From IMG/VR virus record IMGVR_UViG_3300006162_000012, positions 1-64,000 of that record: a DNA stretch of 64,000 bases, one strand, 5' to 3'. Positions within the stretch are counted from its first letter, which is position 1; the number at the start of each line of letters is the position of its first letter. A program made the translations under genes and the position numbers. This DNA comes from a virus. The notes under the pieces are model-generated. The model ran no database searches. It was not told the origin of the DNA and saw nothing but the letters and a program-made list of their open reading frames with translations. Of this stretch, positions 43,936 to 58,891 are shown one piece after another.

Positions 43936-44448
43936 CTAATGGACTGCCGGGACGCCCGAAAACGCGCTTGACTTGATACGCATTTCCCTCGTCGATCCGA
44001 AGACCTGAGCGAGGACATACAACTCATTCTTTTTGACGCGGGAAACCACCGCGCCCATACCATCGAGGAAAGATCCTTCGATATGAAGGACACCTTTATC
44101 CCCCACGCGGGGACCTACGCTAGGCGGCAAAGGCCTCACCCCATCTGCGCCGACGAGCGAACGCACAAACGCCATGACCTTTTCGGAGATGGCCACGGGC
44201 TCGCCGTCGAACGACACAGGGGTGATGAAATCGCTTACAGGATGGTAAAGCCGATCCGGGATGTCGGCGAAGAGATATCCTGGGAACAACGCCCGGACCT
44301 CTTTGCAGAGTTCGAACTTATTCCCCCTCACCCGCACACGGCGCATCGCTTCAGTTTGGGGGAAGAAAACTGGCACGGAAAACCGCTTAAGCTCGCGTAA
44401 AGCAAGCTCTTGCCTTGTCGATGTGACATAAGCGGCGAACCACGTCAT
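43936..44448 (-). CDS. NusG/RfaH-like transcription elongation factor (170 aa)
   Basis: I choose ATG 44448, where the NGN domain begins (MTWFAAYVTSTRQELALREL); a GTG at 44526 would add 26 unlike residues. Residues 1-105 match the NGN fold, which binds the RNA-polymerase clamp (FFPQTEAMRR, ALFPGYLFADI). Residues about 118-170 form a KOW domain (VGDKGVLHIEGSFLDGMGAV, then VLAQVFGS). NusG paralogues such as RfaH and LoaP make polymerase processive through long operons. This gene lies just upstream of the 40-kb late operon, with only an 86-bp gap before the terminase gene. Confidence 0.85.
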   Translation of the reverse strand: MTWFAAYVTSTRQELALRELKRFSVPVFFPQTEAMRRVRVRGNKFELCKEVRALFPGYLFADIPDRLYHPVSDFITPVSFDGEPVAISEKVMAFVRSLVGADGVRPLPPSVGPRVGDKGVLHIEGSFLDGMGAVVSRVKKNELYVLAQVFGSTREMRIKSSAFSGVPAVH

Positions 44449-44804
44449 AGCATCCGCGTATACCACGGTAAAATCATATTGTAAACGTAAAAGCCTTTTC
44501 CAGCAGGCCAAGAGGGCCTTTTTCACCTCATGCTATACGAACTATTCGATACTTCGAGAGAGTCGTGCATAGTGTGTAATATATATATAATGTAAGGACG
44601 GCTTTTTATAAAATAATACACTATATAAAAAGGTTGTATAGTTTGTATAGTCCGTATTTTTCCTAACGATTACAATGGCCCTCCCTATCCGACCTTTACG
44701 GCCTTCTCCGCCGCTATTCGGTCTTTTTCCGTTCATTAAAAGTAGTCTACCATTTTGGTATAATTAAATTTTTCTCTTACAATACGGGCTTTTGGCCCTT
44801 TTCA
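44449..44804 (-). promoter_or_regulatory. AT-rich repeat region upstream of the NusG-like gene
   Basis: In a GC-rich genome this stretch is strikingly AT-rich, especially 44569-44665. It holds a tandem 9-bp repeat TTGTATAGT (44634-44642 and 44643-44651), an inverted repeat ATAGTGT/ACACTAT (44569-44575 and 44618-44624) and an alternating TATATATATA run at 44579-44589. Several minus-strand -35/-10-like pairs are possible, for example TTGTAA with TATACC. It probably carries the promoter of the NusG-late transcript, and perhaps a replication origin beside the primase gene. I see no credible gene in it. Confidence 0.5.
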
Positions 44805-49898: not shown

Positions 49899-50174
49899 AT
49901 GGACACGGATCAAATACTCAAAGAACGCCAGACGACCCATGGAGACTTCCCCGATGTGGCGGAAGTGAACATAGCGTTAGAGCGCGCCGCCTATTCTGGC
50001 GTAAATTGGGACAAATTGCCACCCGTCGCCAAAATCGCCATCAAGATGATCCTCCACAAAATCGCCCGAGTCGTCAGCGGGAATTGGTCGTTCGACGACC
50101 ACTGGGCAGACATTATGGGTTATGCGGGGTTGGTCCGCAAGTATATCGCAGGAGGGTTTAATGCTAAAAGATAA
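49899..50174 (+). CDS. DUF6378-like hypothetical protein (91 aa)
   Basis: The pattern ILKERQTTHGDFPDVAEVN, VAKIAIKMILHKIARVVSGN and DHWADIMGYAGLV matches a small helical phage family (DUF6378-like) of unknown function. The conserved His/Asp residues and all-helical layout recall MazG-like folds, but a metal site is not evident. AAAGGAGCGG precedes the ATG. It opens the second early transcription unit. Confidence 0.65.
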   Translation: MDTDQILKERQTTHGDFPDVAEVNIALERAAYSGVNWDKLPPVAKIAIKMILHKIARVVSGNWSFDDHWADIMGYAGLVRKYIAGGFNAKR

Positions 50175-50313
50175 GCGTAGCGACGGGTGGTCTGACGAGC
50201 ACCGCAAGAATATGTCTTCAGCGATGAAGGCCGCGTGGGAGCGGAAAAGAAAAATCAAGGAACAAAAAAAGAGCGCGGTGAAGCCCGTGAAGACCCATCG
50301 GGGAGCGAAATAA
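50161..50313 (+). CDS. NUMOD3-like small DNA-binding protein (50 aa)
   Basis: The 50-residue basic protein contains SDEHRKNMSSAMKAAWERKR, the NUMOD3-type helix-turn motif usually found beside homing-endonuclease catalytic domains. Here it is free-standing, followed by a Lys-rich tail. It may be a small DNA-binding accessory protein. It overlaps the DUF6378 gene by 14 bp and its TAA overlaps the next ATG. Confidence 0.55.
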   Translation: MLKDKRSDGWSDEHRKNMSSAMKAAWERKRKIKEQKKSAVKPVKTHRGAK

Positions 50314-51563
50314 TGTGCGGCTTCGCGATGTCCCTCCTCCCCGACGATCCGTGGCTTATGAAGGCTGCCGCGGCGATCTCCCACCGCGGGACTCTCCCGC
50401 CCCGTGTCACTCGGCATTCAGCGTTCGCGAGGTTGCCGATCGTCGGGAGCTTCGAGCAACCGATCACGATCTTCGACGAGGAATTCTGTTTCGTCGGCGA
50501 ATTGCTTAATTTTAGAGATTTCACGGATGAGCTCGGCGACACGATGCTCGCGTTTAGGACCCTCCGCGACTTCGGCGTCCGCGGGTTCCAAGGGTTCGAC
50601 GGATTTTGGTCAGTCGCCTACCACCGGCACGGCCGCATCACGCTGATCGCCGACTACCTCGCCCAGAAGCCGATCTTCTACACGCATTCTCGGGCGTGCA
50701 GCGAGCTATGGCCTTTGGTCGAAGAAGGAGAAGATTTCGACGAGGTTTTTCTTTCTGACGTGATGAAATGGGGCTATTGCCCGGACCAAAGCCGCACGCC
50801 GTTCACGAGGATTAAGAAAGTCCTTCCGGGCCATTCCGTGTCGTTGCCCGAACGCCAGATGGAGCATGCGGATCCAGTTTTCATCGCCGACGACTATTCT
50901 CCCGAAGCCCTCAAATACGCTTTTGAAGAAGCTGTCCGCCTCCGCGTCCAATCGTCAGACGTCCCCGTCGCCTGCCTCCTTTCCGGCGGATATGACTCGT
51001 CTTTGGTCTATCGGACTGCGCGGGAATACGGCGACATCGTCCCTTACCACATCGGCCTCACCGGAGAGCTTGGCGTCGCCCAATCTATCGCAGGTCCGTC
51101 TCTCCGCGTCGTGCCGACGGCCGCCCCGCCGACGGATCTTGAGATCCTCCTCTGGATGCAAGAACCTGTCGACCTTGGATCGGTGGAAGCCCAAATCCTC
51201 ATGGCGGAAGCCGTGAAAGAAAACGTCTGCCTCGGCGGCGACGGCGCCGATGAATTCTTCGGCGGCTACGGACGGGCTGCACGATATGACAGCCGTTATT
51301 CGGACGTGTTCCACGAGCTTGTCTGTTACCACCTTCCGCGGCTCGATCGGGTGATGATGCGGAAGGCCGTCGAATACCGGTCTCCCTTCCTTAGCCGAAG
51401 GATGGCCCAGCTGGCTTTAGCCGCCCCTTACGCGCCTAACAAAAAGATCCTTAGGGATATATGGCCCAACGACGTCGAGAAGAAGCCCTTGCGCCCGGCT
51501 GGCTTCGACCGCGAGGCCCATAGCATCCGGCTGGTCAAGCTTTTCCGGGAGATCTGGCTATGA
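50313..51563 (+). CDS. AsnB-like class II glutamine amidotransferase/ATP-PPase (416 aa)
   Basis: Cys2 follows the start Met, as required for an N-terminal nucleophile amidotransferase (MCGFAM), with HRG (about 24-26) and VGELLN (about 61-66) as Gln-site motifs. The C-terminal half is an asparagine-synthetase-type PP-loop domain: CLLSGGYDSSLVYR, LGGDGADEFFGGYGRA and DRVMMRKAVEYRSPFLSRRM. It should activate a carboxylate with ATP and transfer ammonia from glutamine. At 416 aa it is shorter than AsnB (about 550). Lying in an operon with DNA methyltransferase homologues, it may amidate a DNA base or nucleotide modification rather than make asparagine; this is hypothesis. Confidence 0.8.
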   Translation: MCGFAMSLLPDDPWLMKAAAAISHRGTLPPRVTRHSAFARLPIVGSFEQPITIFDEEFCFVGELLNFRDFTDELGDTMLAFRTLRDFGVRGFQGFDGFWSVAYHRHGRITLIADYLAQKPIFYTHSRACSELWPLVEEGEDFDEVFLSDVMKWGYCPDQSRTPFTRIKKVLPGHSVSLPERQMEHADPVFIADDYSPEALKYAFEEAVRLRVQSSDVPVACLLSGGYDSSLVYRTAREYGDIVPYHIGLTGELGVAQSIAGPSLRVVPTAAPPTDLEILLWMQEPVDLGSVEAQILMAEAVKENVCLGGDGADEFFGGYGRAARYDSRYSDVFHELVCYHLPRLDRVMMRKAVEYRSPFLSRRMAQLALAAPYAPNKKILRDIWPNDVEKKPLRPAGFDREAHSIRLVKLFREIWL

Positions 51564-51796
51564 GCGTCATTAATCGGATGAATATCTCGATTTCGTCTAT
51601 AGATAAACCTTCGACGATCGACGGTGAAGTCGTCCATTTCTCGTTCCACGGCGATCATTTCGCCATATGGTTTGTCCCATATAGGCCACGGCGCCAAGTG
51701 AAGATCGTCGGCACGGGGGAAACTTATAAAGGGCGCCATTTAATCAGCGTTTCATTTGGAGACGCCGCTTGGCATTTAATTGAGGTGCAGGAATGA
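51560..51796 (+). CDS. Hypothetical protein (78 aa)
   Basis: A 78-residue beta-rich protein (DGEVVHFSFHGDHFAIWFVP, RRQVKIVGTGETYKGRHLIS) coupled by ATGA to both the amidotransferase and the methyltransferase-like gene. No family is recognised. Its position suggests a partner of one of these enzymes. Confidence 0.5.
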   Translation: MSVINRMNISISSIDKPSTIDGEVVHFSFHGDHFAIWFVPYRPRRQVKIVGTGETYKGRHLISVSFGDAAWHLIEVQE

Positions 51797-53208
51797 AAAA
51801 GAAAGTTGAAGTCCCGCAGCTCACCGCCGTCGGTGTGACGTCTGGCATAGGGTCGATGCTCCATGGGGCGGCGAAGGCTGGGTTCAAGACGCTCGGGAAC
51901 ATCGAATGGCGGAAGTATTACCACGCCCGCGACGAACGCGGCCGCAACACGTTCACGGAGAATTTTCCCGGCGCCGTCTTCAAGCACAAATGGTCTGACC
52001 TTACGCCGGAAGAGGTCGAACGGCTGATGAACCCGACGCTTGCCCTCATGCATTGCGAATGCGGGAATTTTTCGAAATTGAACGGCGCGAACGCCGACCG
52101 CCTGGAGGACTTGACTGATCCTGGCGACATTCCGATCACGTTCGAGGTCGTGGCGAAGCTCCAACCGAGGTTCTTCGCTGCGGACAATCTTGCTCCTTCT
52201 TTCCAAGCGTTCTCGATGCGGGATTACGTCGACGCCCTGCCGGATTACGATATTTTTCCTGAAGCGGTTTCGAATTGGGGTTACGGGAATGTGCAGAAAA
52301 AACGCGATCGGATGTTCGTTCTTGGCGCGAAGAAAGAAGAGGGCTTCACCTTCCGGCCTGACGAGCACGCCCATTCTGGCACTGTTCGGTCAGTCCTCGA
52401 AGGTTTAGGCGAGCCAGGGAAATCTAATTACCCTAACCATGATCCCCACGCTCTTGACGTCATTTCTCCCCGCTCGACGAACATATTGCGCTTAGGAAAA
52501 TCGGAGAATTGGCGCGTCGTCCGCGATTGGTTCGCCGCCCGGCCTCCAGGGACGATAATGGAATATCTGAATAAAGATGGAGAGCTGAAAAAGCGCATCG
52601 GTTTCCTCAAAGCTAAATGGGACGGCCCGTGCAACGTCCTCACCGGCGGCAACGCGACGATCCACCCGATCCGCAATGTCCCCTTCACGATCCGCGAACG
52701 CGCCCGCATCCAAGGTTTCGACGACGATTTCGTTTTCTACGGGACTAAGCTCGACGAGAAAGGGCAGTGGGTCCACGAAAACAATATGCACATGGTGAAG
52801 ATGACGGGAAAGGCGATGCCGATCCAGTTCAATGAATACTTCGCCCGGCAGGTCGCTGCCCATGTCCTTCGGCAGCCTTTCAAAGCGGCAGGGACGCGGC
52901 TCCTCAAAAACGACCCGTTCATCGATGAAGCCAAGACTTGGTTTTGCGACAACGTGGGTTATTCGAAGCAGGAAGCGGCCTGCGGAGCGTGCTGGTTGGC
53001 TGAGGAGTGCGAAGTCAGGCGGAGGCGGTTCGGTTATACCCCTCCTCCTGAAGCGGCCGTCCGCAAGGTTCCTAAGGCCCCTGCCGTGAAAGCCGAAAAG
53101 GTTCCGAACGCGCCAAAAGCGCCAAAAGCGCCCCGCGCCGTAAAGGCGCCTAAAGAAACGATCGCGCCTGCCGGCGCGACGGCTACTACGATGTTGAAAT
53201 TTGACTGA
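51793..53208 (+). CDS. Divergent C5-cytosine methyltransferase homologue (471 aa)
   Basis: C5-MTase motifs appear in order: I (TSGIGSMLHGAAKAGF, about 16-31), IV (MHCECGNFS, 87-94 region), VI (FFAADNLAPS), VIII (VQKKRDRMFVLG) and IX-X (FTIRERARIQGFDDDF then TGKAMPIQFNEYFARQV). The normally invariant PC of motif IV is EC (Cys90 would be the nucleophile), and ENV of motif VI is DNL, so specificity or chemistry may differ. After the MTase fold there is a four-Cys cluster (WFCDNVGY, CGACWLAEEC) and a low-complexity Lys-Ala-Pro tail. It may modify or bind already modified cytosine. Confidence 0.78.
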   Translation: MKKKVEVPQLTAVGVTSGIGSMLHGAAKAGFKTLGNIEWRKYYHARDERGRNTFTENFPGAVFKHKWSDLTPEEVERLMNPTLALMHCECGNFSKLNGANADRLEDLTDPGDIPITFEVVAKLQPRFFAADNLAPSFQAFSMRDYVDALPDYDIFPEAVSNWGYGNVQKKRDRMFVLGAKKEEGFTFRPDEHAHSGTVRSVLEGLGEPGKSNYPNHDPHALDVISPRSTNILRLGKSENWRVVRDWFAARPPGTIMEYLNKDGELKKRIGFLKAKWDGPCNVLTGGNATIHPIRNVPFTIRERARIQGFDDDFVFYGTKLDEKGQWVHENNMHMVKMTGKAMPIQFNEYFARQVAAHVLRQPFKAAGTRLLKNDPFIDEAKTWFCDNVGYSKQEAACGACWLAEECEVRRRRFGYTPPPEAAVRKVPKAPAVKAEKVPNAPKAPKAPRAVKAPKETIAPAGATATTMLKFD

Positions 53209-53222
53209 AGGGAGAAGAAAAT

Positions 53223-54119
53223 ATGTCTATGGGCGATAAAGTTGAGGTTAGGGACGGCGACATACCGGGCGATTATCATTGCGCATGCGCATGGTGCTCG
53301 AAAGCCATCGGAGAGCTCCGTCCTTTGGACGGCTCATACTACAGTCGACTTGAGCGGCGGGCTTATTATTCCCCGACGGAAAAAGGCAAAGGCGGGCACA
53401 TCGCGAAAACGCCGTTGCATATCGCCCGTTGGGCGATCCAAGCTTATTCGAAGAAAGGAGACTGGGTCCTGGATCCGACGATCGGCGCCGGGACGACGGC
53501 CGTCGAGTCGTTGACTCAAGGGCGAAGCGTCGCGGGGATGGAGCTTGAATTCGGGCAAATCCTTTCCGATAATATCAAGAAAGCTCTCTCCACGATCCCG
53601 AAAGGATCGGCAGAAGCGAAAGTCGCCCAAGGCGACGCGAGGAACATCGGCGATTTCTTGAAAAAGGTCGACCAGAAGTTCAAGCTGGTCGTCAACAATC
53701 CCCCCTATAGCGGCGACAAATCGGTCGGCACGCTCATCAAGGGAGGACCGCCGCAAATCCTCTACGCTTACGACAAAAAGCTCCCGAACCTGGCTTTCCT
53801 AAATGAAGGTCCCGTCTATATCGAAACGATGACGGACATCTACAAAGCTTGCGTTTCAGCCCTCCAGCCAGGCGGGCATTTCGTCGTCGGCGTTAAAGAC
53901 ATGATGCGGAAACGCGAACCCTTCCTCCTTCACCAAATCTATTGCAGGATCCTCGAAGACCTAGGGATGGAATATGTCGGCGCCGCTTTCTTGAAGCATT
54001 ATCCGGGCACATTGTTCCTGAACACATATTTCACGGCCCGCGGCGTCCACCCGCCTTATTACCAGACGATCGTCGTGTTCAAAAAACCTGGCGGCCGGGC
54101 GGCGAAAAAACTTTCCTGA
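53223..54119 (+). CDS. Amino-methyltransferase (N6A/N4C type, 298 aa)
   Basis: The SAM-binding motif DPTIGAGTT (about 84-92) follows a motif X-like KTPLHIARWAIQAY, and the catalytic NPPY is at 159-162 (VVNNPPYSG). The order X-I-IV indicates an exocyclic amino-group DNA methyltransferase, probably N6-adenine. The N-terminus has three close Cys (CACAWC) that may bind zinc. There is no obvious large target-recognition domain, so recognition may be short. GGGAG precedes the ATG. The transcript probably ends at the hairpin at 54132. Confidence 0.78.
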   Translation: MSMGDKVEVRDGDIPGDYHCACAWCSKAIGELRPLDGSYYSRLERRAYYSPTEKGKGGHIAKTPLHIARWAIQAYSKKGDWVLDPTIGAGTTAVESLTQGRSVAGMELEFGQILSDNIKKALSTIPKGSAEAKVAQGDARNIGDFLKKVDQKFKLVVNNPPYSGDKSVGTLIKGGPPQILYAYDKKLPNLAFLNEGPVYIETMTDIYKACVSALQPGGHFVVGVKDMMRKREPFLLHQIYCRILEDLGMEYVGAAFLKHYPGTLFLNTYFTARGVHPPYYQTIVVFKKPGGRAAKKLS

Positions 54120-54214: not shown

Positions 54215-54715
54215 ATGGTTGAGCTTAAAAAATTGCCTTTAGCGGAAAGCGCCACGGCGCGGACGATCGAAATAATTAAGACTCTTCCGTCGGGAAGCGT
54301 CTTCACAAGCACGACCATCAAAGACATCGCCGCGGACGGCGGATGGTCCCTCGACGTAAGCCATATATCTGCAGCGCTTTACCGATGGCGCGGCAAGAAA
54401 ATGTTCCGATGCATCGGCCATTCGTCCAACAACCGCAAACGCCTAGTTTACGTCATGGAGGATCCTTCCGTCGTCTTTAAGCTTAACCGCCGGCCGGAGC
54501 ATGTAGTTGTCCGTCCAAGGCTCGGCGGTTACCATAAGCATTCAGACGCTCCGAATGTCCTCATCGGAGAATTCGGCTCCTCGAGGATAAACGAGCTTCC
54601 TAAGCAAGAAGTTACCGTGGTTCCGCCTGTCATTCTTGAAGACACACCGTCGTCGATCCTTGACGATTTCCTCCAGCTCCTCGTGCGGTTAGAAAAATTA
54701 TTGAAGAAGGATTGA
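54215..54715 (+). CDS. Putative winged-helix protein (166 aa)
   Basis: Residues 13-80 have a winged-helix pattern (TARTIEIIKTLPSGSVFTST, IKDIAADGGWSLDVSHISAA, LYRWRGKKMFRCIG, RLVYVMED), suggesting DNA binding. The rest is a polar linker and a C-terminal helix (SILDDFLQLLVRLEKLLKKD) that could dimerise. A regulatory role for the modification unit is possible. GGAGG precedes the ATG. Confidence 0.5.
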   Translation: MVELKKLPLAESATARTIEIIKTLPSGSVFTSTTIKDIAADGGWSLDVSHISAALYRWRGKKMFRCIGHSSNNRKRLVYVMEDPSVVFKLNRRPEHVVVRPRLGGYHKHSDAPNVLIGEFGSSRINELPKQEVTVVPPVILEDTPSSILDDFLQLLVRLEKLLKKD

Positions 54716-54717
54716 CG

Positions 54718-55503
54718 ATGTTCAAGAACCAAATCACAGCTTTCCGCGGAGCTCTCCTCGAAGCCCCAATCGTTAAGACAGAAAAATGGCAGGGCGTCGA
54801 AGCGAACCTTTCGACGAAGGAGATGACAAACCAGTTCTTTATCGTCGATCTTAAGGGTGAGGAACGACTCAATGCCTATGCTGACGACATCAAGCCGAAC
54901 CTTCCGTTCGCGGATAAAGCTTTTGAAGAGCGCGTCGGCGGGGAGCCTTTGAACCCTGGGACCGCGTGGCTTAGTTGGCCGTGGTCCCGATCGGCGGAAA
55001 AATTCAAGCCCTCAGTGTTCGACCATTCCTACGCAGAGCGTTATTGGCCTAAATTCGCGAACCGAAGCGAAGGAGGGAAATTGCCGGTTTCCTATCCTGA
55101 ACGCATCCGACGTTACCCGGCGAAAGATCCCCGGCCTCGGTGGGGAGCCCGCGGGCCATACGGCGACCTTGAGGATCTTGTGAACCTCCTTGACGACCAG
55201 CCCTTCACCCGGCAAGCTTACTTGCCGATCTTCTACCCAGAAGATCTCGGCGGCTTGCCGCGGAAGCCTTGCACACTCGGCTATCATTTCCTCCAACGGG
55301 ATGGGAAGTTCAATGTTTTCTACCTAATGAGGAGTTGCGATTTCACAAGGCATTTCCGCGACGACTGCTACCTCACTATCCGTCTTCTTCTCTGGGTGCT
55401 CGACCAGCTCCGGATAAGGGACTCGTTTTGGCTCGGCGTCGTTCCTGGCGATTTTTCCATGTGGATCGGAAGCCTCCACGTTTTTGAAAAGGACCCCCTA
55501 TGA
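54718..55503 (+). CDS. Putative dCMP hydroxymethylase (thymidylate-synthase fold, 261 aa)
   Basis: ATG 54718 is chosen for its GAAGAAGGA; a TTG lies at 54712. The C-terminal half matches the thymidylate synthase/hydroxymethylase family: catalytic Cys185 (RKPCTLGYHFLQRDGKFNVF), phosphate-binding RSCD (205-208) and PGDFSMWIGSLHVFEKD. The residue that aligns with the uracil-selecting Asn of thymidylate synthase is Asp216 (HFRDDCY), as in T4 dCMP hydroxymethylase (FRNDY), and GSLHVF equals GSLHVY of T4. It should convert dCMP to 5-hydroxymethyl-dCMP with methylenetetrahydrofolate. The N-terminal 100 residues are divergent. It overlaps the MazG-like gene by four bases. Confidence 0.8.
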   Translation: MFKNQITAFRGALLEAPIVKTEKWQGVEANLSTKEMTNQFFIVDLKGEERLNAYADDIKPNLPFADKAFEERVGGEPLNPGTAWLSWPWSRSAEKFKPSVFDHSYAERYWPKFANRSEGGKLPVSYPERIRRYPAKDPRPRWGARGPYGDLEDLVNLLDDQPFTRQAYLPIFYPEDLGGLPRKPCTLGYHFLQRDGKFNVFYLMRSCDFTRHFRDDCYLTIRLLLWVLDQLRIRDSFWLGVVPGDFSMWIGSLHVFEKDPL

Positions 55504-55871
55504 GCTATTTTCTTGATGTCCGAGATTTCCATCGAAAATTCGGCCTTCCTTCCGACGGGCCGGCGCGCCGGCTCGACGACGTCGAGCGGATTTTCCGCGA
55601 AAAATTCATGGAAGAAGAACTCAAAGAATACAAAGAAGCCGACACGAAAGCCGACCAGCTTGACGCCCTCGTGGACCTTTGCTATGTCGCGATCGGGACT
55701 GCCGTGATGCAAGGCTTCGACTTCGATGAAGCTTGGCGGCGGGTCCACGAAGCGAACATGAAGAAAGTCCGTGTATCGTCCGCTAGCCAAAGCAAGAGAG
55801 GGTCGACCCTCGACGTCGTGAAGCCGCCGGGCTGGACGCCTCCAGATCATTCCGACCTTGTAGGAGAATGA
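55500..55871 (+). CDS. MazG-like NTP pyrophosphohydrolase, dCTPase candidate (123 aa)
   Basis: An all-alpha NTP-PPase with the metal-binding pattern FMEEELKEYKEADTKADQLD, then DLCYVAIGTAV, i.e. EExxE followed by DxxD. The N-terminal residues FHRKFGLP and the C-terminal tail are typical of phage MazG-like proteins. In the setting of a dCMP hydroxymethylase and a dCMP deaminase, hydrolysis of dCTP to dCMP (the role of T4 gp56) is the natural guess. The family cannot be assigned a nucleotide from sequence alone. Confidence 0.75.
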   Translation: MSYFLDVRDFHRKFGLPSDGPARRLDDVERIFREKFMEEELKEYKEADTKADQLDALVDLCYVAIGTAVMQGFDFDEAWRRVHEANMKKVRVSSASQSKRGSTLDVVKPPGWTPPDHSDLVGE

Positions 55872-55872
55872 C

Positions 55873-56301
55873 ATGACTGATTGGATTGTCCGATGGTTCG
55901 AGCTGGCTGAGCACATTTCGACCTGGAGCAAAGATCCTAGGACGAAAGTCGGCGCAGTCCTCGTCGGCGCTGACCGACGGGAGATCGCCGTTGGGTTCAA
56001 TGGGTTCCCCCGCGGTGTCGAAGACACTGAAGAACGCTTGAACAATAGGTCGGTGAAGAACGCCCTCACGCAACATGCAGAGAGGAACGTCCTCGACAAC
56101 GCCCGCTTCGACGCGAAAGGCGGAACGCTTGTCGTGACTTTCGCTCCTTGCCATGAATGCGCGAAGTCGATCATCGCCAAAGGCGTCGCCCGCGTGATCT
56201 GCCCTCCTAGCAGCCAGGATCCGAAGTGGCTGGAGAGCTTCGCCCTATCTTCAGAACTTTTCGATGAGGCCGGCGTCGAATTGCTAATTTTTTCAAAATA
56301 A
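55873..56301 (+). CDS. dCMP deaminase (142 aa)
   Basis: A zinc-dependent deoxycytidylate deaminase. Zinc ligands and the proton shuttle are His68-Ala-Glu70 (QHAERNVLDNA) and Pro92-Cys93-x-x-Cys96 (APCHECAKSI). The N-terminus (WSKDPRTKVGAVLV) and GFNGFPRGVED are diagnostic of dCMP deaminases. It makes dUMP from dCMP, feeding thymidylate and lowering normal dCMP. It starts one base after the MazG-like stop, and its TAA runs into the next promoter box. Confidence 0.92.
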   Translation: MTDWIVRWFELAEHISTWSKDPRTKVGAVLVGADRREIAVGFNGFPRGVEDTEERLNNRSVKNALTQHAERNVLDNARFDAKGGTLVVTFAPCHECAKSIIAKGVARVICPPSSQDPKWLESFALSSELFDEAGVELLIFSK

Positions 56302-56393: not shown

Positions 56394-57056
56394 ATGCATC
56401 CGAAGCCAGACTTTTCAAAGATGAACGGACAGCAGCTTTTGGACACGTACAATATGTACGCTCCGAAGTCTCGGTCGGCGAAGTTCCAGGATAAACAGGA
56501 AGGCGTCGCTCGTTGCGAGGCCGAATGGGTGAAATGGGACAAGGCCAACCCGAACCACCCAGACCGCGCCAAGAGCTTGGCGCTTACGACGACTACGACC
56601 CCGGCCGCGTCGGCCCCGGTCGGACCCAAAGTGGAGGACAAAAACATGGCGAAGACTGCGACTGCCGCGGCTAAGGCCGCCCCGAAGACGGAAACCAAGA
56701 AGACGGCTGCGAAGGCTCCTTCCAAGCCCAAGACTGCACCGGCCTCGAACAAGGCCAAGGCGAAGGCGGAAAAGCAGAAGGACCGCCCCGAGCGTCGGAA
56801 GCCGGAGTCGCTCCAGGGCCGCAATCGCCGGAGCTACGACATCATCCAGCGCAAGGCGAAGGTCAATCCCCGCCGAGAGGGTTCCCTGTCGCACGACTTC
56901 TTCGAGGAAATGGTCGACGGCCGCACCGTCGGCGAATACCTCGACCAGTTCGACGACTCGGAACGCCGCAACGCTTCGCAGTGGCTCTCGAATTCGATCG
57001 CGGAAGGCCACATCACGATCAAATACGGCGAGCCGCCGGCTGAGTCGGCGAAGTGA
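56394..57056 (+). CDS. Lys/Ala-rich protein with C-terminal domain (220 aa)
   Basis: Residues 1-62 form a small helical domain (KMNGQQLLDTYNMYAPKSRS, EAEWVKWDKANPNHP). Residues about 65-138 are a low-complexity Thr/Ala/Lys/Pro linker resembling histone H1 tails. Residues about 142-212 form a conserved-looking domain (RSYDIIQRKAKVNPRREGSL, FFEEMVDGRTVGEYLDQF, ASQWLSNSIAEGHITIKY), perhaps winged-helix. It is likely a DNA-binding protein. An internal start at 56646 has a strong ribosome binding site. The stop overlaps the polymerase GTG. Confidence 0.6.
   Translation: MHPKPDFSKMNGQQLLDTYNMYAPKSRSAKFQDKQEGVARCEAEWVKWDKANPNHPDRAKSLALTTTTTPAASAPVGPKVEDKNMAKTATAAAKAAPKTETKKTAAKAPSKPKTAPASNKAKAKAEKQKDRPERRKPESLQGRNRRSYDIIQRKAKVNPRREGSLSHDFFEEMVDGRTVGEYLDQFDDSERRNASQWLSNSIAEGHITIKYGEPPAESAK
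56646..57056 (+). CDS. Shorter product from an internal start (136 aa)
   Basis: ATG 56646 (MAKTATAAAKAAPK...) is preceded by GTGGAGGA with eight bases between GGAGG and ATG. This is a better Shine-Dalgarno than most gene starts here. The product would lack the N-terminal domain and keep the basic linker and C-terminal domain. Inference only. Confidence 0.45.
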   Translation: MAKTATAAAKAAPKTETKKTAAKAPSKPKTAPASNKAKAKAEKQKDRPERRKPESLQGRNRRSYDIIQRKAKVNPRREGSLSHDFFEEMVDGRTVGEYLDQFDDSERRNASQWLSNSIAEGHITIKYGEPPAESAK

Positions 57057-58891
57057 AAAAAAAGGCAAGGCTCCACAGCCCCGCCTTCCCCTCGCTTCAA
57101 GGCCAAGGCTATATCGGGATAGACCTTGAGACGAAGGATCCTGACCTCAAGAAATTGGGGCCAGGATATTTCCGCGAGGGCTCTTATGTCGCCGGTGTCG
57201 CTGTAGGGACGGAGGCGGGGTTTAGGGAGTATTACCCTATCGGCCACGAAGAAGGCCCAAATTTGCCTAAAGGGCAGGTTGCTGAATGGCTCCGGCGGGA
57301 GCTTAGCACAGACGTCCCGAAGGTCGGGGCGAATATCATTTACGACCTCGGGTTCCTCCGTTTCATGGGTGTTGAGCCAAAAGGTCCTTTTTACGACATT
57401 CAAGTCGCTGAACCGTTGATCGACGAAAACCGCCTTTCTTATAGCCTTGAGGCCTTGTCGCAAAAATACCTTGGTGCGGGAAAATTCGACGAAGAGCTTA
57501 ACGCTTACCTTATCGCGAAATACGGGCGGAAAAATCCGAAATCGAACATCTGGCGCGCGCCTTCGCATATCGTCAAACCTTACGCGGTCGGCGACGTCGA
57601 GCAAACTCTTTACGTGTTCCGAAAGCAAATTCCGATCCTTAAAGCGGAAGCCTTGTGGGATTTGTTCGAGATGGAATGCAGCCTCATCCCGATGCTCCTC
57701 GACATGCGGGTCCGCGGCGTCCATATCGACGTCCCCGCCGCGAAGAAGATGCATGCTGAACTTACGGAAAGGCAAGAAAAGCTCCAGAAGAAAATCGGCG
57801 ATGCGTCTGTCTGGGCGGCTGCAGAAATCGCGCTGTTATTCGACAGGCACGGCATGGAATATCCCCGCACTCCGAAGACTAAAGCTCCGTCGATCACGGC
57901 GGACTTTCTTAAGGCGTGCCCGCACCCATTGGCGAAAAGCATCCTTGAGGTGCGGCAGCTGGACAAACTCCGCGGGACTTTCCTAGAAGGCGTGATTTTC
58001 GACATGCTTTACGAAGGATCGATCCACACGTCTTTCAACCAACTCCGGAGCGACGACACTGGCGCGGTCTCTGGCCGGTTTAGCTCATCCCTTCCGAACC
58101 TCCAATTCATTCCGTCCAGGACAGAAGACGGCAAGCGTATCCGCTCGCTTTTTGTCCCCGATAAGGGGTGCGATTGGGGGAAATTAGATTTTAGCCAAGT
58201 CGAATTTCGGCTGGCTGTGAATGACGCCATAGATTGTAAGCTAGGAAAAGCCCACGCAATCGCAGAAGCTTACCAGAGGGATCCAAACCTCGACTATCAT
58301 CAAGTCGTCGCCGATATGTGCGGCGTCACTCGGACGCAAGCTAAGACGATCAATTTCGGCATCCTTTACGGAGAAGGCGCCGCGAAGCTTTCTTCGCAGC
58401 TTGGCTTAGATGAACAAGGCGGTCGAAAGCTGTTGAGGAAATATCATCTGCGAGTCCCGTTCGCTAAGCCTCTTTCCGAGCGATTTTCTAGCATCGCCAA
58501 AAAGCAGGGTTACGTCGTCACCCTTTACGGCCGGCGCCGCCGGTTTGAAAAATTTTCTGTGGGAGGGAAAGATGGTTTCCAGATTGTCCCAGAAGGGACG
58601 ATCGGCGCAAGGCGGGCTTTCGTCCACAAAGCCCTCAACGCGCGGATCCAGGGAAGCGCGGCAGACGTGATGAAATTGTCGATGCTTGCAGTCTATAAAT
58701 CTGGCGTGACGAAAGTCCTCGGCGTTCCGCACCTCACCGTGCATGACGAGCTCGACTATTCGATCCCCCGGACGAAGGAAGGCCGCGAGGCTTTCGCGGA
58801 AGCGAAACATCTTATGGAGACGTGCGTCGAATTGAATTTGCCTTTGAAGGTCGACAGCGGCGTCGGCCCCAATTGGGGGAAAGTAGCATGA
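57053..58891 (+). CDS. DNA polymerase, family A (612 aa)
   Basis: Starts at GTG 57053 (GTGA overlap). The N-terminal 3'-5' proofreading domain has GIDLETKD (Asp24, Glu26), NIIYD (Asp98) and YAVGD (Asp181). The polymerase domain has motif A KLDFSQVEFR (Asp379), motif B RTQAKTINFGILYG (Arg427, Lys431, Tyr439) and motif C VHDELD (565-566). The residue four after the motif B Lys is Phe, as in E. coli Pol I Phe762. It is the replicative polymerase of the phage. No 5' nuclease domain is present. Confidence 0.95.
   Translation: MKKKARLHSPAFPSLQGQGYIGIDLETKDPDLKKLGPGYFREGSYVAGVAVGTEAGFREYYPIGHEEGPNLPKGQVAEWLRRELSTDVPKVGANIIYDLGFLRFMGVEPKGPFYDIQVAEPLIDENRLSYSLEALSQKYLGAGKFDEELNAYLIAKYGRKNPKSNIWRAPSHIVKPYAVGDVEQTLYVFRKQIPILKAEALWDLFEMECSLIPMLLDMRVRGVHIDVPAAKKMHAELTERQEKLQKKIGDASVWAAAEIALLFDRHGMEYPRTPKTKAPSITADFLKACPHPLAKSILEVRQLDKLRGTFLEGVIFDMLYEGSIHTSFNQLRSDDTGAVSGRFSSSLPNLQFIPSRTEDGKRIRSLFVPDKGCDWGKLDFSQVEFRLAVNDAIDCKLGKAHAIAEAYQRDPNLDYHQVVADMCGVTRTQAKTINFGILYGEGAAKLSSQLGLDEQGGRKLLRKYHLRVPFAKPLSERFSSIAKKQGYVVTLYGRRRRFEKFSVGGKDGFQIVPEGTIGARRAFVHKALNARIQGSAADVMKLSMLAVYKSGVTKVLGVPHLTVHDELDYSIPRTKEGREAFAEAKHLMETCVELNLPLKVDSGVGPNWGKVA

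Follow-up and report, generated by a model that had tools for sequence, protein, structure and literature searches.

The locus described here lies on IMG/VR virus record IMGVR_UViG_3300006162_000012, of which we analysed a window of 64,000 nucleotides (positions 1 to 64,000). The relevant genes are as follows:

49899-50174, plus strand: DUF6378 protein, 91 aa (PF19905, E = 6e-7)
50313-51563, plus strand: compact AsnB-like glutamine amidotransferase/ATP-PPase, 416 aa (PF00733, E = 3e-22)
51560-51796, plus strand: 78-aa ORF between the AsnB-like and C5-MTase-like genes, overlapping both
51793-53208, plus strand: diverged C5-cytosine DNA methyltransferase (C5-MTase)-like protein, 471 aa (PF00145, E = 4.9e-11)
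53223-54119, plus strand: CcrM-like N6/N4 DNA methyltransferase, NPPY (PF01555, E = 1.3e-15; NF050803, E = 1.4e-4)
54215-54715, plus strand: 166-aa ORF directly 5' of the TS-like gene, with no Pfam or PHROG match
54718-55503, plus strand: putative dCMP-modifying enzyme of the thymidylate synthase (TS) fold, 261 aa, ATG start (PF00303, E = 8.5e-6; phrog_160, E = 2.4e-25)
55500-55871, plus strand: MazG-like/PRA-PH NTP pyrophosphohydrolase, 123 aa, candidate dCTPase (PF01503, E = 5.9e-13; phrog_671, E = 7e-27)
55873-56301, plus strand: dCMP deaminase, 142 aa, Zn site HAE...PCxxC (PF00383, E = 3.5e-18; phrog_174, E = 3.6e-41)
57053-58891, plus strand: DNA polymerase family A (PF00476, E = 1.8e-66)

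The cassette of TS-fold, MazG-like and dCMP deaminase genes had been picked out in the original prediction, and the Pfam and PHROG matches confirm that it is real. The TS-like ORF ends at 55503 and its likeliest start is the ATG at 54718, with AAGAAGGA upstream (a TTG at 54712 is also open); its stop codon and the start codon of the MazG-like gene share the ATGA at 55500-55503, in keeping with the coupling proposed between them. The 166-aa ORF at 54215-54715, included in the stretch first given, is separate from the enzyme, and is unrelated to the TS-fold paralogue found at this place in other phages. The true beginning of the operon lies about 4 kb further upstream, and we read the putative cytosine-modification operon of this phage as spanning roughly 50.3-56.3 kb on the plus strand.

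Some of the neighbours recur elsewhere. The family A DNA polymerase is the downstream neighbour in 70 of the 92 scanned relative loci, the DUF6378 protein is also encoded at some other loci with the C5-MTase/AsnB-like pair (cluster k32), and the CcrM-like methyltransferase belongs to the module in some relatives, in one of which (L039) it is fused to the C5-MTase-like protein. As originally stated for the window, and in a departure from the T4 system, no dNMP kinase or glucosyltransferase was found: thymidylate kinase and dNK families are absent from the whole 67.2-kb record, and neither glycosyltransferase nor kinase families appear among the Pfam assignments of its ORFs (all but 6 of 31 families covered). 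A tRNA scan found none.

The observation stands well clear of chance, with 281 IMG/VR relatives and 138 phage records. In the MetaGPA study, TS proteins with Asp177 (PF00303) were associated, together with PF01503 and PF00383, with cytosine-modified phage contigs (PMC8670742). Because this same gene set is present here, the phage DNA likely carries modified cytosine, of a kind already known. The second-step enzyme of the MetaGPA network is a 5hmC carbamoyltransferase (PMC8670742), whereas the window has the C5-MTase-like and AsnB-like pair in addition to the common genes.

Turning to the TS-fold enzyme, its nucleophile is C185, with R182 at position -3, and the other aligned site residues are S206, D216, H254, F256, H103-x-Y105 and N61, the last at the Glu58/60 site. 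The dCMP-specific Asp that had been read in HFRDDCY is indeed there: the second Asp of the motif, D216, aligns with E. coli Asn177 and T4 Asp179, and is invariant in 88 of 88 relatives; a second clade of TS proteins, with linkage to this C5-MTase too, also has Asp there in 7 of 7 members. The T4 likeness claimed for GSLHVF does not hold, because T4 gp42 has GSLHVY (NC_000866); the window family has Phe at the position of T4 Tyr218 in all 88 members. The N-terminal third is divergent, as had been noted, with the Pfam match restricted to residues ~109-212. The suggestion of a new subfamily holds up, as the window family is a supported clade apart from both T4 gp42 and AfhB, the 5-hydroxy-dCMP synthase of Mosigvirus. 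Following HxF, the family has a median of 12 residues and the window enzyme 5, and the C-terminal tail that seals the folate site in thymidylate synthase is absent from the latter. This short C-terminus resembles those of T4 gp42 and AfhB, and was counted for the dCMP-modifying reading.

The original prediction assigned the enzyme to the T4 type, that is, a methylene-THF-dependent dCMP hydroxymethylase that would give virions 5-hydroxymethyl-dC or a derivative of it, with other residues, such as E71, replacing Glu60 and Asp145. We regard this as possible but rather unlikely. Like T4 gp42 (1b49, 1b5e, 6a9b), the window enzyme has the TS fold, the catalytic Cys followed by Thr/Ser, equivalents of Asp179 and Ser167, the His and a short C-terminus, and it would act at the dCMP level. 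In addition, the CMP 5-hydroxymethylase MilA (5b6d), which has Asp186 for cytosine and the Cys in common with it, comes first both in the Foldseek search with the AlphaFold2 (AF2) model (pLDDT 75.9), where AfhB follows, and in the PDB sequence profile search. However, identity to gp42 is only ~17-25%, and the published hydroxymethylase signature combines S/T-x-Y with an Asp or Glu three residues before the Cys, which activates water (PMC6400193). Neither part of this signature is found in the window enzyme or in its 88 relatives: position -3 is Arg in 88 of 88, where MilA, the two phage dUMP-hydroxymethylase references and 27 of 27 T4 relatives have Asp, and the residue two before the active-site Tyr is His in 88 of 88 (HxY), where all 27 T4 relatives have Ser (SxY). 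The T4 enzyme itself is inactive as D145N (PMC6400193). MilA likewise differs from the window enzyme, having Asp at -3, Tyr and Ala176 (ribose) in place of Arg, Phe and Ser206 (deoxyribose type).

Relative to gp42, Asp145 is replaced by Arg, Ser94 by His and Tyr218 by Phe, and Glu60 aligns with Asn. The Glu60 column reads N in 73, D in 10, S in 3 and F in 1 of 87 relatives, although the N-terminal alignment behind it is the weakest part of the residue comparison and the model, built on 12 sequences, is poor at residues 70-150 and does not place the Glu/Asn geometry. For the Glu58 column we used the larger alignment together with a count of E-x-x-W, an earlier alignment having placed T4 Glu58 differently. 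E71 is invariant in the family and could take over the Glu role. Since the family lacks the active-site Tyr of T4 gp42 and its Asp/Ser pair for water activation, and apparently the folate-activating Glu as well, the C5 group cannot be called hydroxymethyl from the sequence.

The two larger upstream genes are best considered together. The C5-MTase-like protein has in common with M.HaeIII/M.HhaI-type enzymes the PF00145 fold, motif I (here GVTSGIGS), the catalytic Cys, RxR and GKxxP. It differs from them at the catalytic and base-recognition sites, where PPCQ and ENV of ordinary C5-MTases have become PECG and DDL(P) in its close homologues, in a C-terminal Cys4 (C-x11-C-x2-C-x5-C), and in its obligate linkage to TS. 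Canonical PCQ and ENV motifs are absent from the window protein, which deviates even from its own subfamily: motif IV, PPCQxFS in the ordinary enzymes, is HPECGxFS in the family and HCECGNFS here, and motif VI, ordinarily ENVP, is MDDLP in the family and ADNLA here. The SAM motif I is retained, as is the E-W of motif II, and the protein could therefore still be transferring methyl groups in the ordinary way. C5-MTases are known to couple thiols to 5hmC in vitro (PMC7176277).

The AsnB-like protein starts with MCGF at 50313 (the ORF is open from a GTG at 50235) and contains the PP-loop SGGYDSS; with the MCG glutaminase start and SGGxDSS both present, its catalytic motifs look intact. It matches TIGR01536 with E = 3e-32 and 112 bits, below the curated cut-off of 267, and at 416 aa is shorter than asparagine synthetase B (553 aa), whose structure 1ct9 is the closest solved. 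A glutamine-dependent amidotransferase that finishes a phage base has a precedent in Gat-QueC of the dG+ pathway, which likewise combines glutamine amidotransferase and ATP-PPase in a phage DNA-base pathway (PMC6884629). Gat-QueC differs in acting on 7-deazaguanine, and no QueD/E, FolE or DpdA was noticed in the window phage.

It is unlikely, in our view, that the C5-MTase-like, AsnB-like and CcrM-like genes are unconnected with the cassette, as an anti-restriction methyltransferase pair and a metabolic asparagine synthetase that merely lie nearby. Methyltransferases and metabolic genes are frequent in phages, and the retained SAM and AsnB-like motifs would suit this explanation. Against it, beyond the altered catalytic and base-recognition motifs, stands the distribution of the genes. 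The C5-MTase-like and AsnB-like genes are found together in 10 of 10 distinct TS loci (Fisher p = 1.9e-12), while most relatives carry the TS-fold paralogue in their place; the pair (10 loci) and the paralogue (47 loci) never overlap among 72 distinct loci (p = 6e-6). The paralogue is absent from 11 whole records of the pair type and from the window's own record, and both genes of the pair are absent from 19 whole records of the paralogue type, in searches that detected the positive controls. The paralogue is assigned by structure (AF2 pLDDT 90, Foldseek match to the TS fold); profile-profile comparison by HHalign found no sequence-level link to the TS family, and a PDB profile search no match.

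The same linkage is seen from the side of the methyltransferase. A TS gene lies within 8 kb of 25 of the 29 close C5-MTase homologues, and elsewhere on the record of a 26th; the contigs of the remaining three end early, which makes it all 26 assessable records. By comparison, 17 of the 18 other C5-MTases from the same scan (L139-L156) lack TS, the exception (L148) carrying a TS of the second clade. Neither gene of the pair was found in cultured phages outside the module, and among genome contigs only a single genuine member of this C5-MTase subfamily was found, its phage contig being one that is also an IMG/VR record. One locus (L133) has no AsnB-like gene within 8 kb, so the AsnB-like protein is not strictly required.

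AfhB (9iqc, 9iqu), for which our facts come from PDB titles and PMC13390438, offers another model: a FAD/flavin-dependent dCMP hydroxylase yielding 5-hydroxy-dCMP, which would be decorated later. Its structures are among the best structural matches, it has the TS fold, Asp179 and short tail in common with the window enzyme as well as H-x-F, which T4 lacks, and the profile match is stronger to AfhB (E = 1.6e-10) than to T4 (1.7e-8). Nevertheless we consider this type improbable, as AfhB keeps Glu58 within E-x-x-W, Glu at -3 and Thr-x-Tyr, all of which are missing from the family; the clades are separate, and no flavin or sugar genes were noticed nearby.

A dCMP methylase of the XP12 type, giving 5-methyl-dCMP and DNA with plain 5mC, is more doubtful again. 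XP12 DNA is fully 5mC, with which restriction data for AXL1 agree (PMC9206674), and phage DLP4 of this lineage, which stood in for XP12 in our comparison, has the same neighbours (pyrophosphohydrolase and dCMP deaminase) around a TS with Asp177. The DLP4 enzyme, however, has a full-length TS C-tail, the canonical Glu and Pro after the Cys, falls near ThyA in the tree, and is accompanied in its operon by DHFR, a gene not seen in the window phage. Finally, ordinary metabolism, in which a diverged dUMP thymidylate synthase (the Pfam name of the enzyme) with the usual dCMP deaminase and MazG helpers raises dTMP, draws on genes commonly used by phages for dTMP supply, yet is very improbable given Asp rather than Asn at 177 in every relative, the absent C-tail, and the relative Triscuit, in which a normal ThyA adjoins the D177-type enzyme.

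The reading that we prefer, with a probability of about 0.55 as a whole, is a cytosine-modification operon with a second, hypermodifying step. There is a strong case that the TS-fold enzyme attacks C6 of dCMP through C185, selects cytosine by D216 and adds a group to C5 while the base is still in a mononucleotide. The MazG-like enzyme would hydrolyse dCTP, keeping unmodified C out and supplying dCMP, of which the deaminase would divert the surplus to dUMP. This much of the T4-style minimal logic originally proposed fits cytosine replacement; what it missed is the linked C5-MTase-like, AsnB-like and CcrM-like genes. The C5-MTase-like protein may act, via a Cys-C6 adduct, on the TS-modified base in DNA rather than on plain cytosine, with the AsnB-like amidotransferase perhaps supplying ammonia or an amide-activated group, and the product may be a hypermodified cytosine that guards phage DNA from host nucleases. 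Outside such phages the C5-MTase-like and AsnB-like genes are hardly ever found together, and this suggests a route of DNA modification not described before. That a TS-fold enzyme unlike that of T4, a repurposed C5-MTase homologue and an AsnB-like protein together make an amino- or amide-bearing cytosine is a tentative proposal, to which we give less than even odds.

Phages that modify cytosine are a known kind; what this module points to is a second step with a chemistry that is so far undescribed. If our reading is true, taking Asp177 to mean hydroxymethylase over-reads that residue, since at least three TS-fold dCMP chemistries (hydroxymethyl, hydroxy and methyl) have it. PECG/DDLP, an AsnB-like gene and an Asp177 TS together form a clear sequence signature for choosing phages for LC-MS. 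The C5-MTase fold appears here to have left plain methylation and to have become tied to a glutamine amidotransferase, which, if true, would bring in a DNA base of a new class and show a classic enzyme fold put to a new use.

The original prediction described a dCMP-hydroxymethylase cassette at 54215-56301, including MazG-like and dCMP deaminase genes. The genes it reported are present where it placed them, but 54215-54715 is a separate ORF. Genes recognised in the window and the rest of its record:

43939-44526, minus strand, NusG-like protein (PF02357, E=5e-7, pooled scan), a possible phage antiterminator
47646-48341, ParB-like in appearance (by eye)
50313-51563, AsnB-like (amidotransferase-like) gene
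51793-53208, diverged C5-cytosine DNA methyltransferase-like (C5-MTase-like) gene
53223-54119, CcrM-like MTase
54215-54715, 166-aa ORF without Pfam or PHROG match
54718-55503, thymidylate-synthase (TS)-fold ORF, most likely start ATG 54718
MazG-like gene, start overlapping the TS stop (ATGA)
dCMP deaminase, directly after the MazG-like gene
L014:496-2040 (record bases about 62795-64339), UvrD-type helicase spanning the window end
L014:2655-3029 (record bases about 64954-65328), DUF4406 protein beyond the window end
Position in record not resolved (pooled scan), GcrA-type regulator (PF07750)

The 67,227-base viral record has recognisable ORFs for parts of a contractile tail (tail sheath, baseplate), and the encoded GcrA homologue and CcrM-like MTase suggest an alphaproteobacterial host.

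We consider it likely, at about 0.75, that this phage modifies cytosine. Homologues of the TS-like enzyme occur in 138 phage records by tblastn (Gordonia, Serratia, Pseudomonas, Brevundimonas, Streptomyces, and others; 37-49% identity among the matches listed), and a profile scan found 281 IMG/VR relatives. Asp at the Asn177/Asp179 site and the TS active-site Cys and His are each kept in 88/88 aligned relatives (the window family), with the active-site Arg and Ser invariant or nearly so; this conservation supports dCMP as the substrate. Asn177-to-Asp is the established cytosine switch and was among the two top residues tied to cytosine-modified contigs by MetaGPA; PF00303 occurred with PF01503 and PF00383 in such contigs (PMC8670742), exactly the gene set of this cassette. 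In Microbacterium phage Triscuit (L028:4923-6628) a canonical ThyA adjoins the TS-like enzyme, and the two therefore have distinct roles. Two relatives of the module (L116:11006-12478 and L148:5665-7611) have a TS-like gene interrupted by a large insert that keeps the reading frame and resembles an intein or homing endonuclease.

The enzyme had also been named a dCMP hydroxymethylase with a "T4-like" GSLHVF motif. The T4 motif is GSLHVY, and the window family lacks the hydroxymethylation signature named in the paper on the T4 ternary complex: Asp (or Glu) at position -3 from the Cys plus Ser/Thr at -2 from the Tyr, the T4 D145N enzyme being dead (PMC6400193). At the first position, all 27 T4 relatives have Asp, as do the dUMP-hydroxymethylase references from phage SP8 and Ackermannviridae; all 15 AfhB sequences (FAD-dependent dCMP hydroxylases) have Glu. 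Arg stands there in the window family (88/88) and in a further TS group, the second clade (7/7). The second reads S-x-Y (27/27 T4), T-x-Y (15/15 AfhB), and H-x-Y (88/88 window family). Tyr218 is Phe in 88/88, a change also seen in AfhB and in most second-clade enzymes. Glu58/60 activates methylene-THF; the site is Glu in 80/80 T4 relatives, motif-matching AfhB sequences, ThyA, DLP4, SP8, and Ackermannviridae enzymes, and in the window family it aligns with Asn (73), Asp (10), Ser (3), or Phe (1), this being the least reliable stretch of the alignment. In a quick-method tree with long branches, the window family groups with the second clade with support, while T4 gp42 and AfhB each form a clade of their own elsewhere; Foldseek matched the predicted structure best to MilA (CMP hydroxymethylase) and AfhB. 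On these residue patterns a T4-type identity is not established, and T4-type 5hmC seems an unlikely product.

Neighbourhood clustering over 72 distinct loci, all drawn from TS scans so that counts apply to TS-bearing loci and not to natural rates, gave two sub-types. In 47/72, and thus in most relatives, a ~270-aa protein is encoded directly upstream of the TS-like gene (for example L045:5135-5968; phrog_34294/phrog_13667, without Pfam). Its AF2 model (pLDDT 90) is a TS-fold with AfhB as best match, and its sequence shows one Cys that never varies together with the motif R-[ST]-x-E...AD; this paralogue may pair with the TS-like enzyme as a heterodimer or catalyse a second step. Ten loci, including the window, lack it and carry the C5-MTase-like and AsnB-like genes, always as a pair (p=1.9e-12); the paralogue and this pair exclude each other (p=6e-6, 72 distinct loci). 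Whole-record searches found the paralogue in 0/11 sub-type-two records and not in the window's own record, and C5-MTase plus AsnB-like in 0/19 sub-type-one records (controls positive). Sub-type-two members are scattered over several places in the TS tree, so a single frozen ancestry is improbable, although the forks in that part of the tree are not firm.

In the reciprocal direction, the C5-MTase profile matched 29 close homologues in IMG/VR, 25 with TS within 8 kb; one (L130, the contig also fetched as L009) has TS elsewhere, and three are on incomplete contigs. AsnB-like is missing in 4/29, three on contigs ending near the gene. Among other C5-MTases of that scan (L139-L156), 17/18 lack TS; the exception, L148, and an intermediate, L138, have a second-clade TS. 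The pair quite probably works in the same pathway as TS. The C5-MTase subfamily was absent from cultured phages in the collection searched, where the sole phage match of AsnB-like was a 3.3-kb Listeria record. Cellular genomes yielded a single close match to the C5-MTase (L253, RPRB01000006.1), a 75,335-base phage contig in a Myxococcaceae MAG bin, apparently the same contig as one IMG/VR record.

Close homologues mostly have HPECGxFS, MDDLP, and a C-terminal C-x(10-11)-C-x2-C-x5-C, whereas ordinary C5-MTases have PPCQxFS and ENVP without the Cys4; the copy in the window departs somewhat from the pattern of its close homologues (HCECG, ADNLA). A CcrM-like MTase is a separate gene or piece in 12/29 of these loci, and in L039/L123 a CcrM-like N6/N4 MTase is fused to the C5-MTase-like protein (L039:5290-7596, one 768-aa ORF).

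Gene content, residue patterns, and co-occurrence were observed directly; from these we infer a pathway in which dCMP would be modified at C5 ahead of incorporation, dCTP removed, and surplus dCMP converted to dUMP. Because a fold that forms Cys-C6 adducts is paired here with a glutamine amidotransferase, the modified base may undergo a second step. Thiol coupling to 5hmC by C5-MTases is documented in vitro (PMC7176277), and the phage protein Gat-QueC finishes a 7-deazaguanine in DNA by means of a glutamine amidotransferase (PMC6884629). The C5-MTase-like protein may instead simply methylate, since its SAM-binding motifs are retained. New hypermodification chemistry by the pair is a tentative prospect.
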